64,000 nt of DNA from a virus. The position numbers were made by a program, and so were the translations under genes. The stretch lies in IMG/VR virus record IMGVR_UViG_3300047498_000060, positions 1 to 64,000 of that record; one strand, written 5' to 3'. The notes under the pieces were generated by a model. The model had not been told where the DNA came from. It did not search any database and worked only from the letters and a program-made list of their open reading frames with translations. Below are positions 36,745 to 48,101 of this stretch, piece after piece (position 1 is the first letter of the stretch; every line of letters starts with the position of its first letter).

Positions 36745-36953
36745 CACCTGAAGATCTTCGTCTCACCGACGAAGTTGTGCACGGTGCCGTCGAAGACGGT
36801 GCTCTTGGGCATGAGGTGGATGTTGTCTCGATCGAAGATGCCGGCCTTCGCGAGCTCCTCGTTCCGTCTCTCGGTCCCGAAGATCTCCTCCGCCGTCTCG
36901 CCCGACTTGAGCCGCTCTGTGATGGAGAGTGCCTTCCTACGCTTCTTGCCCAC
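36744..36953 (-). CDS. Hypothetical protein (69 aa)
   Basis: GTG 36953. Basic start MGKKRRKALSITERLKSGET, then AGIFDRDNIHLMPKSTVFDG. No family recognised. Confidence 0.6.
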   Translation of the reverse strand: MGKKRRKALSITERLKSGETAEEIFGTERRNEELAKAGIFDRDNIHLMPKSTVFDGTVHNFVGETKIFR

Positions 36954-37392
36954 CAGCCGCCTCCTCTTCCTGCTTCTTCGTGAGGAGCCGTGCAGCCTCC
37001 TGCTCGGCGCTCTTCAGCGTCGCCTCGACGATGTTGAAGGCCTGGGCTGCAGCCAGAGCGCCCATCATGGCCACCCGCTGCCGGTCACCCAACAGCCGAT
37101 GGAGCGTGATGAGGCACATGCCCCACTTCTCTGAGATGATGCGGAGCGTCTTGTTCTCCTCGCGCAGGTCCTTGATGATCTGCAGGAGCTCGGCCTTCGA
37201 GAGATGCTCGGTGGGGTTAGCTGCAGCCAGGGCCTGGTCCACGCTCAGCTCGGGCGGAGAGGGCAAGGTCTTCAGGTCCTTGCGCGTGGGCACCTCACGG
37301 ACCTCGAGGGCCGTCTTGGCGAGCCCGACTCGCACCTCAAAGTCCTCCGGCGTCATCCCAGGCACCTTCGCTCCTTCGTCATCCTGCATCAT
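36937..37392 (-). CDS. Hypothetical coiled-coil protein (151 aa)
   Basis: ATG 37392 behind GGAGGAGC, in overlap with the polymerase fragment's stop. Acidic start, then LSKAELLQIIKDLREENKTL coiled coil and a C-terminal Glu/Gln-rich helix. No family recognised. Confidence 0.62.
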   Translation of the reverse strand: MMQDDEGAKVPGMTPEDFEVRVGLAKTALEVREVPTRKDLKTLPSPPELSVDQALAAANPTEHLSKAELLQIIKDLREENKTLRIISEKWGMCLITLHRLLGDRQRVAMMGALAAAQAFNIVEATLKSAEQEAARLLTKKQEEEAAGGQEA

Positions 37393-37802
37393 GCTCCTCC
37401 GTTCTGCTTCCTGTAGGCTGCGTCCTCCTCGATGAGGATCTGCAGCCTCTTCACACCATAGCGCGCCTCGATGAGCTTGAAACACTCTTCGAGCGTGACG
37501 GTCACAGCTTCGGGGCCACAGAAGTCCGCCGGCACCGTGAACACCTTGGTGGTCTTGTCGTACTCAACGACCTCGAGCATGCGCCAGAACGGTCTCCGAG
37601 CACTGACGAGCTTTCCTTCCAGCTCAATCATCATGTATCGCATCTCGAGGTCTGCATAGTCGGCCAGGATGAGAACAGGTGGACGCAGAGCTTTGGCGAT
37701 CTCACGCCCTACTTCAGTGCGAAGCGGGATGTTCTGGATGGCGGGCTCGTTCGAGAAGAACCGCCCCGTCCGTGGCACGTTCCACTCTCTGCGGTGCGTC
37801 AC
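37389..37802 (-). CDS. Fragment of a family A DNA polymerase (palm, motif A only; 137 aa)
   Basis: RTGRFFSNEPAIQNIPLRTE (residues 11-30) is the TGRxxSxxPxxQNIP signature of DNA polymerase I, and LILADYADLEMR (44-55) is motif A with the catalytic Asp at 48. Everything after residue 60 is unlike PolA, and motifs B and C are absent from the whole window. So this is not a full polymerase: a split-gene piece, a decayed remnant, or a reused domain. GTG 37802 overlaps the upstream stop, so it is embedded in an operon as a normal gene. Confidence 0.72.
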   Translation of the reverse strand: MTHRREWNVPRTGRFFSNEPAIQNIPLRTEVGREIAKALRPPVLILADYADLEMRYMMIELEGKLVSARRPFWRMLEVVEYDKTTKVFTVPADFCGPEAVTVTLEECFKLIEARYGVKRLQILIEEDAAYRKQNGGA

Positions 37803-38086
37803 GTCTTCTCGATCTCCGCAACAAGCTTCAACAGAACCTTCACCAGGTCCACGCCGAGCTCCGCCTTGATGGGCCTCCGCTCAGGCAGAATCTCATCACG
37901 CCTATCTCTGAGCCATGAGGCAAGGACCTTGCGCTCCTTGTCGTTGAACACCCCGAGAGGCGGGCAGTACACCGTGCCGCTGTGTGGCTCGTCCACGAAG
38001 GTCGAACAACACACGCGCATGTTGCCGCGCTTCTTGATCCTCTTCTGCGCCGCCTTGGGCATGTTGGCCTCGTCTAGAAGTGTCAT
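37799..38086 (-). CDS. Hypothetical protein (95 aa)
   Basis: ATG 38086 (ATGA). MTLLDEANMPKAAQKRIKKR, then CCSTFVDEPHSGTVYCPPLG and a helical C-terminus. No family recognised; nothing polymerase-like. Confidence 0.62.
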   Translation of the reverse strand: MTLLDEANMPKAAQKRIKKRGNMRVCCSTFVDEPHSGTVYCPPLGVFNDKERKVLASWLRDRRDEILPERRPIKAELGVDLVKVLLKLVAEIEKT

Positions 38087-45855: not shown

Positions 45856-46758
45856 CTAGCTGCTTTCTTTTTCGCGCAGCTGCCGGACCAGCCCCTTCGA
45901 CACGCCGTACTTACGTGCTAACGCACCGTGGCTGAGAGTGGACGTCTTTAGTTCAGCACGTAACGCCGCACGTTCTGCAACCGGTCGCCTGTTCATGTCA
46001 CGAACGGGGGTCGTTACTATGTCGTCTATTGACCAGCCCTTTTTTAGCCGGTCGATTATCACGGAATCGGTCAGGTTGAAGGCTTCGCACATCTCCGCAC
46101 GAGTCAGTTCCACGCCGGCGTATTCGTACTTCAAAGCGCGCGCCTTGTTTCTGTTCGTCTTGCCACAACCGCACGAGGTGGTGGGTTTGTCAGTACGTGT
46201 GAGCTCGTAGTAGCTGACACGCACGTCTTTGCCACACGAGCACCTGCACCGGAAGTAGACTGCCTTTTCATCATCCGGCGCCAGCACAGTAAGGTCGCCC
46301 ATCCGGCGACCGCGGGTCATCTCCTGCCGCCTTCGGGTCTCTGCGCCCAGGCGGCTCTTCATGCGAGGAACGCAGTTCAAACAGCTGGTAGCTTTCCCGT
46401 GTCGAAGACGGTAAAGGTCGACCTGCCGCTCACCGCCGCAGTCGCAGCGACAGAGCCAGTGTCGCTTCTCCCCTTTCACGGTGAAGGAAACGGCCACCAG
46501 TTTGCCGAAACGCTGCCCTGCGATGTCCATCGGCATTGATACCGGCGTCTGACCACGCATGCACCCGCATGTTCGTAGCGTGCCACGTAGCAGTGAGGAC
46601 ACGCGCTTCCAACAAGTAGCACCGCAGGCTTCGCAGAGGACTTGCACCTCGGGATACGGGTACTTTATCCCTTTGTAGTGGTGTAGGCGCGTTGCCGCAT
46701 CGACGACGACCAACCTCCCACATCGAAAGCCCTTGGGTACAAAGGATTGTCGTGTCAT
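45856..46758 (-). CDS. Tandem zinc-finger protein of the homing-endonuclease accessory type (300 aa)
   Basis: ATG 46758. Three related units: RCGRLVVVDA...CEACGATCWKRV...CGCM; GQRFGKLVAVSF...WLCRCDCGGERQV...CLNC; MGDLTVLAPD...FRCRCSCGKDV...CGCG. This is the Cys-rich unit that goes with HNH/AP2 homing enzymes in phages. The C-terminus (HGALARKYGVSKGLVRQLRE) is a helix-turn-helix. I see no HNH or GIY-YIG site, so it may be a DNA-binding relic or regulator. Confidence 0.62.
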   Translation of the reverse strand: MTRQSFVPKGFRCGRLVVVDAATRLHHYKGIKYPYPEVQVLCEACGATCWKRVSSLLRGTLRTCGCMRGQTPVSMPMDIAGQRFGKLVAVSFTVKGEKRHWLCRCDCGGERQVDLYRLRHGKATSCLNCVPRMKSRLGAETRRRQEMTRGRRMGDLTVLAPDDEKAVYFRCRCSCGKDVRVSYYELTRTDKPTTSCGCGKTNRNKARALKYEYAGVELTRAEMCEAFNLTDSVIIDRLKKGWSIDDIVTTPVRDMNRRPVAERAALRAELKTSTLSHGALARKYGVSKGLVRQLREKESS

Positions 46759-48101
46759 ATCAACACCGCCTGCAAGCGCTCCTTGTACTTCTGCAGGTAG
46801 GCATCTGCCCACGACGCGGGAAGACCCTTCTTCTTTGCAAAGGCGCGTACACGAGCAGACTGCTCACGGTAGCCCAGCTCCACTAGCGACGCGCCATTCT
46901 CCGGCAGGATGAGACGCCGCGCTGGTGACGGGAAAGCGTAGCCGCAACCAGGGCAAACCGTCTCTCCGCAAAGAACCAGCTCGTGGCAGTCGGGGCACTC
47001 TTTGACTTCCGACGTCTCTGGCAAAGGCAGGAGAGTACCGCTGAGAGAGAAGTCGCGGTCAACATAGGGGTACCCGTGCCGAAGAACATTCCCCGCGTGG
47101 TCCAGGATTTTGGCTGGTGAACCGCGCCGCTGACAACGCGAGCACTGCTGCTGGTACACCACGTAACTCAGTGTCGGCCGCGCCATGATGACAACGCGTA
47201 CCGCCGGGATGTCGACGCCCTCATTCATCAAGTCACAAGACCACAGCACGCGTGTCTTGCCAGACCTGAAACGCGAAACAATTTCTTTCTGCTCTGCCGC
47301 GGTCATGCCGCCGTGGATGTGTTCGGAGACCACGCCGCCAGCGGTGAACTTTGCGGCAAGGTGCTTTGCATGCAACACAGAGACGGCAAAGCCGAAAGCG
47401 CGCTGCCCGCCTGCGCGCTTCTTGTAGTCCTTGAGCGTATCGCCTGCGAGCTCTTCTCGGTCCATCACGCGCGCCAGAGCCTCCTGGTCATAGTCACCTG
47501 CGGCATGCGGCACGTTCGACAGGTCCACTAGCACCCCACCAGCGCCGTAACAGGTAGGAGCCACGACCAACCCTTTCCGCAGCAGCTCCTTGTACGTCGC
47601 CCCCACAAGGAGCGTGTCGAATGTCGACGCGAAGCCAATCCCGTCATAGCGAACAGGCGTAGCCGTAGAGCCGCACACGCGCCCGTGCGGGTGGCTCGCC
47701 ACAATGTCCTGGTAGGTGCGGGCGGCAGCATGGTGGGTCTCCGCAATGAAGACGTGGTCTGCGCGCTCTAGGTCGCGTCGGCTGTAGGCCTGTACGCCGG
47801 CAACACAAACCGCCATGTAATCCGGCAGCTGGTTACGGCCGAAACCGACAATACCAATGCGCTCACGAGGAATGCCGTAAGCCGTGAGATGTTCGAGAGT
47901 CTGGTTCATGAGCAGCTCGCGGTGAACCAGCATCAGAGAGGTTCTGCCGGCACGCAAAGCCCGCGCCGCTAGACCCACGTCCATGTAGGTCTTGCCGCTC
48001 CCGCCTGGGGAGGAGATGAGTACGTTCTTGCCTGCTTCACTCAGTGCCCAGGCCTTCTTGATGGTCCGCTTCTGATGCGGATAAAGAGATTCTTCGTTCA
48101 T
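46755..48101 (-). CDS. SF2 DNA helicase with altered motif II
   Basis: 448 residues from ATG 48101 behind GGAG. Motif I SSPGGSGKTY (31-40), motif III GSTATP, motif V/VI region WSCDLMNEGVDIPA and YQQQCSRCQR. Motif II reads AETHH (120-124) where DEAH/DECH is expected: the first Asp is Ala (codon GCG). C-terminal CPDCHELVLCGETVCPGCGY is a zinc ribbon. Probably a repair or recombination helicase like UvsW-type phage enzymes; whether it still hydrolyses ATP is unclear. Confidence 0.8.
   Translation of the reverse strand: MNEESLYPHQKRTIKKAWALSEAGKNVLISSPGGSGKTYMDVGLAARALRAGRTSLMLVHRELLMNQTLEHLTAYGIPRERIGIVGFGRNQLPDYMAVCVAGVQAYSRRDLERADHVFIAETHHAAARTYQDIVASHPHGRVCGSTATPVRYDGIGFASTFDTLLVGATYKELLRKGLVVAPTCYGAGGVLVDLSNVPHAAGDYDQEALARVMDREELAGDTLKDYKKRAGGQRAFGFAVSVLHAKHLAAKFTAGGVVSEHIHGGMTAAEQKEIVSRFRSGKTRVLWSCDLMNEGVDIPAVRVVIMARPTLSYVVYQQQCSRCQRRGSPAKILDHAGNVLRHGYPYVDRDFSLSGTLLPLPETSEVKECPDCHELVLCGETVCPGCGYAFPSPARRLILPENGASLVELGYREQSARVRAFAKKKGLPASWADAYLQKYKERLQAVLI

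Follow-up and report, generated by a model that had tools for sequence, protein, structure and literature searches.

A 137-aa open reading frame (ORF) of a large phage is predicted from its sequence to be a real small phage protein that derives from the DNA-binding and active-site strip of bacterial-type DNA polymerase I (Pol I). The DNA under study is the first 64 kb (the window) of a 183,295-base virus record (G000; IMGVR_UViG_3300047498_000060). Our preferred reading, to which we give a probability of about 0.4, is that this mini-protein is a small non-polymerase protein that has been exapted from the QNIP block and motif A of Pol I and that would act by binding, as a mimic, competitor, or decoy. 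The same strip with the same substitution is found in unrelated phages, a recurrence that makes it probable that the strip on its own has been selected for some function.

The mini-protein gene is located at 37389..37802 on the minus strand with a GTG start and a TGA stop. The GTG overlaps the TGA of an upstream 95-aa ORF of unassigned function (37799..38086, minus strand) as GTGA. The stop overlaps the ATG of a downstream ORF of ~151 aa (36937..37392, minus strand; coiled-coil-like by eye) as ATGATG, and GGAGGA is found directly ahead of this ATG. Both halves of the mini-protein ORF exhibit coding-like codon composition in frame. The clean coupled start and stop claimed in the preliminary description are confirmed by these overlaps. 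Its view that the ORF is not an obvious random ruin is upheld by the codon use of both halves and by the recurrence of the strip in other phages. No close relatives of the ORF and its two neighbours were found in IMG/VR.

The single Pfam family identified in the ORF by hmmscan is PF00476 (DNA_pol_A) with 37.6 bits (cut-off 34.3 bits) and an E-value of 1.6e-9. The hmmscan match covers residues 9-57 of the ORF and positions 115-167 of the 381 positions of the profile, and the stretch homologous to DNA_pol_A (profile 112-167) is located at 37632..37787 on the minus strand. The TGR/QNIP block (residues 12-38, TGRFFSNEPAIQNIPLRTEVGREIAKA; 37689..37769, minus strand) carries TGRFF..EPAIQNIP, while motif A (residues 47-55; 37638..37664, minus strand) is ADYADLEMR with the catalytic Asp present. 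Motif A retains its active-site D and E, and TGR retains its Arg. The C-terminal extension (residues 58-137; 37392..37631, minus strand) has no relatives detected by hmmscan or the relative search, the C-terminal half has no relatives in G000 or in record G001, and these 80 residues differ between phages. Motif B (O-helix, R...K...YG) is missing in the ORF, where the PF00476 alignment stops at profile position 167 of 381. Motif C (HDE) has no match in the ORF or in the rest of the window, and no second PF00476 match was identified inside the 64-kb window by the profile search. The earlier account of a 137-residue product with the QNIP block and motif A, and of motifs B and C that are missing from both the product and the rest of the window, is correct in these respects.

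The tblastn search of the ORF against bacterial-type polA gave E-values down to 6e-8, and a profile built from the mini-proteins reaches 7e-17 with structures of bacterial Pol I, such as that of M. smegmatis (6vdc). Judged from these alignments, the polymerase match of the ORF is to be taken as far better than chance, and the chance-level alignment considered in the preliminary description is ruled out. The structure prediction proposed there was uninformative. AlphaFold2 gave no confident fold for the window ORF (pLDDT 58), for which Foldseek gave no significant match, and a poor model for the mini-protein of Caulobacter phages (pLDDT 66).

Outside the window, at 163941-166016 of the 183-kb record, lies an uninterrupted gene for a 691-aa family A polymerase, which has QNIP, motif A, motif B, and motif C regions of its own. 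The search of the full genome for polA pieces, which had been proposed earlier, identified this complete polymerase and no partner piece (motif B or C) of the fragment, either nearby or elsewhere in the 183-kb record. The fragment is of the bacterial type (IPLRTE.GR; IPLRTEVGREI), whereas the resident polymerase has IPKPDSDKFK (IPKPDSDKFKLR). In local alignment, the fragment scores 127 and 120 with two polA of the bacterial type and 88 with the resident polymerase. By sequence type, the fragment is accordingly of a different lineage from the resident polymerase. A 56-base stretch of the mini-protein gene is 80% identical to the resident polA. A recent duplication from the resident polA is nevertheless unsupported, since the number of same codons (9) is near the expectation from codon bias (6.3) and bacterial-type polA is the nearer match at the protein level.

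Other stand-alone strips were identified in IMG/VR. An alignment-based scan identified a 63-aa mini-protein directly behind a sigma-70-like (region 3) gene in G002 (L047), a 177-kb relative of the window phage. The DNA pattern P[AP]xQNxPxRT matched seven stretches in 2.9 million viral contigs, none of them in a full-length polymerase. These matches are the already known carrier phages and a new one, the 142-kb unrelated phage G008 (L145), which has a 59-aa mini-protein. An ORF resembling an HNH endonuclease is present in G008 at ~2290-2980 on the minus strand, ~1.5 kb upstream of the mini-protein, and no family A polymerase was detected in this 142-kb record. A 273-aa ORF with permuted family A segments is located at L048:2344-3165 (plus strand) and at the same place in L049 (records G003 and G004). 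It consists of a motif-B piece (NDIHRKTAAELFGIPEEEVTEKQRQLAKT...LYG), a CxxC stretch, and a C-terminal QNIP block, which is the reverse of the polymerase order. This permuted order suggests that short segments, and not the palm fold, may be what is kept. The start-stop overlap of the mini-protein with the upstream gene is exhibited by all four arrangements read. A complete family A polymerase is present in all carrier records searched except G008 and the fragmentary 89-kb contig G004 (G003 type).

Several candidates were rejected. The same pattern gave one match (L153) in ~780 bacterial genomes, which is PAFQNIPIST in an unrelated frame and not a mini-protein. EPAIQNIP in L034 is part of an unrelated protein. 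The tblastn match in Vibrio 1.117.O, labelled 'hypothetical protein', is a full-length polymerase that sits in a 2037-base ORF.

G000 and G002 belong to one virus family with many collinear ORFs at 40-65% identity and polymerases at 63% identity, and G003 is a distant member of this family. G008 and the Caulobacter phages share just a handful of ORFs with the family. Since the carriers share few ORFs across groups, the mini-proteins occur in at least three unrelated large-phage groups, where the window phage and its relatives are counted as one. The G000 record, IMGVR_UViG_3300014168_000002, and IMGVR_UViG_3300047496_000430 form one little-sampled large-phage family. The second of these records has ~87% DNA identity to G000 over 80-182 kb, and the third is collinear at 40-65% protein identity. 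G001, a near relative at 97% in the polA protein, spans just the 80-182 kb part of the record and is therefore uninformative on the mini-protein locus in the 37-kb region. The locus differs within the family, as the mini-protein lies behind the sigma gene in G002 and 24 kb from the sigma homologue in the window phage (61429..62421, minus strand; 46% to the G002 sigma-factor gene). The window also has an ORF at 45856-46812 (minus strand) with repeated cysteine-containing units that by eye resembles an HNH or homing-associated DNA-binding protein and has a relative in G002.

Conservation in related phages, another check proposed earlier, was found in G002 and in stand-alone strips of further large phages. 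The window and G002 mini-proteins are identical at 22 of 36 core residues. They use the same codon at only 11 of these positions, about the 9.7 that codon bias predicts, which places the conservation at the protein level. G002 is the sole relative usable for assessing selection on the window ORF. In the tree, the resident polymerases of G000, G002, and G003 form a group that is separate from the mini-proteins. A branch with SH-aLRT support of 76 has the mini-proteins on one side, in a tree of 81 columns where the mini-protein branches are very long, so their common origin is not proven.

All mini-proteins share a substitution in the QNIP block. The Asn before xQN (E. coli Asn675, numbered after PMC2814812) is Ala or Pro in all of them, while it is kept in 92 of 92 full-length polymerases of the fetched loci. 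In the window protein, the Asn of PNLQNIP is replaced with Ala (EPAIQNIP) and the Gln of DYSQIELR (E. coli Gln708) is replaced with Asp (DYADLE). Motif A is DYADLE, DFAELE, or DF[AS]EIE across the mini-proteins and DYTKFE in G008. The Gln708 position is thus Glu or Asp in the mini-proteins but Lys in the G008 member, and it is Gln in 80 of 80 bacterial full-length sequences, 79 of which have DYS at the motif start. The Asn675 signature is to be read with the search in mind, as the pattern that led to L145 and L048 requires Ala or Pro and would miss stand-alone strips with Asn. No such requirement applied to the detection of the window ORF, of the Caulobacter proteins (by tblastn), or of L047 (via its motif A).

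The tblastn search against annotated phages identified gp221 of the Caulobacter phage phiCbK, an 81-aa protein of PHROG 12116 that is annotated as 'putative Pol I DNA polymerase, palm domain'. This family is present in 26 records of phiCbK-type phages at 70-100% identity. The window ORF matches the PHROG 12116 profile with an E-value of 0.00016 that covers just profile positions 4-28 of 81. The gp221 gene is directly behind GcrA and overlaps it in all seven Caulobacter regions read (L035, L041-L046), while CcrColossus has neither GcrA nor the mini-protein. From this joint presence and joint absence, gp221 and the GcrA homologue may be one functional unit. The dN/dS of gp221 among Caulobacter phages is ~0.3. 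Its dN between phiCbK and Rogue is 0.17, which is lower than that of the flanking genes GcrA (0.29) and gp220 (0.51). In the first conserved block of gp221, 5-8 of 20 codons have synonymous changes inside an invariant core, hence the protein and not the DNA is what is kept. The gp221 protein is under purifying selection. In another Caulobacter phage, BL57 (PQ287320.1), the matches to the T7-like polymerase at 96148-97408 are split over two open frames of 318 and 855 codons, which suggests a possible frameshift, insertion, or sequencing error.

Motif B, motif C, fingers, and thumb are all needed for polymerisation by family A enzymes. The mini-protein has none of these and therefore presumably cannot polymerise, and it would act by binding rather than by catalysis. 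It may mimic the primer-template strip of a polymerase and so compete with, or act as a decoy for, a factor that recognises family A polymerases. The candidate targets would be the Pol I of the host, with its partners, or a defence system able to sense the phage polymerase. Phages can escape from Borvo and AbiQ by mutations in their DNA polymerases, one of which is of family A (PMC11348598). The extension of this idea to a class of polymerase mimics in several unrelated large-phage lineages, where an Asn675-altered Pol I strip would compete with, or serve as a decoy for, a host factor or defence that recognises family A DNA polymerases, is rather doubtful. The suggestion in the preliminary description that a domain may be reused for another job is supported in outline by the recurrence, the purifying selection where it is measurable, and the shared substitution.

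Four other explanations were weighed against the exaptation of the strip as a binding protein. It is unlikely that the ORF is a decaying remnant, namely a laterally acquired piece of a bacterial-type polA gene that is drifting and open by chance. Such a remnant would fit the single strip of the gene that is left, the 80 C-terminal residues without relatives, and the different place of the fragment in G002. It does not fit the intact frame with coupled ends and coding-like codon use over both halves, the active-site residues retained in motif A (D and E) and in TGR (R), or the same strip that G002 keeps at saturated synonymous distance. The dN/dS of the Caulobacter homologues and the same Asn675 change in the same strip of unrelated phages also argue against drift. 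The origin of the strip might be explained by homing endonucleases or introns that target the QNIP codons of polA, where a flanking exon was copied and later kept. The polA intron of SPO1 lies between the Asn675 and Leu676 codons (PMC2814812), the site that is altered in the mini-proteins, and the ORF near the G008 mini-protein is HNH-like by eye. Such a by-product is highly unlikely, as it accounts for origin and not maintenance, the core codons vary freely, and no endonuclease gene adjoins the window ORF or the Caulobacter gene.

The direct translational coupling behind GcrA in the seven Caulobacter regions and behind the sigma-70 region 3 protein in G002, together with the absence of both GcrA and the mini-protein in CcrColossus, would be explained by a transcription partner that works with the coupled sigma or sigma-cofactor gene (GcrA in phiCbK-type phages and sigma-70-like in G002). 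We regard this role as quite unlikely, since the gene upstream of the mini-protein does not resemble a sigma factor in either the window phage or G008, the sigma homologue of the window phage is 24 kb away, and the two cases may be coincidence. The preliminary description had also proposed half of a split polymerase. Phage polymerases with domains spread over ORFs are known (PMC10684548), and the motif A residues are retained. However, it is extremely improbable that the ORF supplies a piece of a split family A polymerase and assembles with other pieces that have diverged strongly. The window phage, G002, G003, and the Caulobacter phages all carry a complete polA, the search for pieces with motif B or C found none nearby or elsewhere in the record, N675 is lost, and the intact resident polymerase is of another lineage than the fragment.

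The Caulobacter member is already known in GenBank and PHROGs under the name of a DNA polymerase. Short phage ORFs are commonly labelled by annotation pipelines after the enzyme they resemble, and the name 'DNA polymerase' is here misapplied to a protein that is unable to be one. In the literature, we found no account of stand-alone polA strips as a recurring, marked group or of the Asn675 signature. The phiCbK genome paper treats gp123, its T7-like polymerase, and gp222, its GcrA homologue, and a search of its text gave no mention of gp221 (PMC3556154). If the mimic reading is true, the strip would be a new way of counter-defence, given that phage polymerases are implicated in escape from several defences. 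The question is directly testable with phiCbK and its laboratory host Caulobacter crescentus.

The window mini-protein is clearly homologous to bacterial Pol I in the TGR/QNIP block and motif A, and the nearest type is IP[IL]RTE.GR. It differs from bacterial Pol I in that the fingers, thumb, motif B, motif C, and exonuclease are absent and both Asn675 and Gln708 are replaced. Like the window protein, the split phage polymerases have polymerase sequence in a short ORF, but their other pieces are nearby and jointly form a polymerase, whereas the window record has a complete one (PMC10684548). The divPolA1 and divPolA2 proteins are also second PolA-related proteins beside the main phage polymerase, but they are full-length diverged enzymes while the window protein is one short strip, and divPolA1 keeps the main catalytic palm residues and is thought to be active (PMC11348598). 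Another comparable system is gp221 of phiCbK (PHROG 12116), although the Caulobacter phages are otherwise unrelated to the window phage (3 ORF matches). The gp221 protein differs in that it is behind GcrA, does not have the 80-residue C-terminal extension, and is ~40% identical in the shared part. Like the window protein, it is a stand-alone QNIP block and motif A (78-83 aa) that is coupled to an upstream gene, Asn675 is replaced, motif A has the form D[FY][AS][ED][IL]E.R, and the carrier phage has a separate complete polymerase, which is T7-like in the Caulobacter phages.
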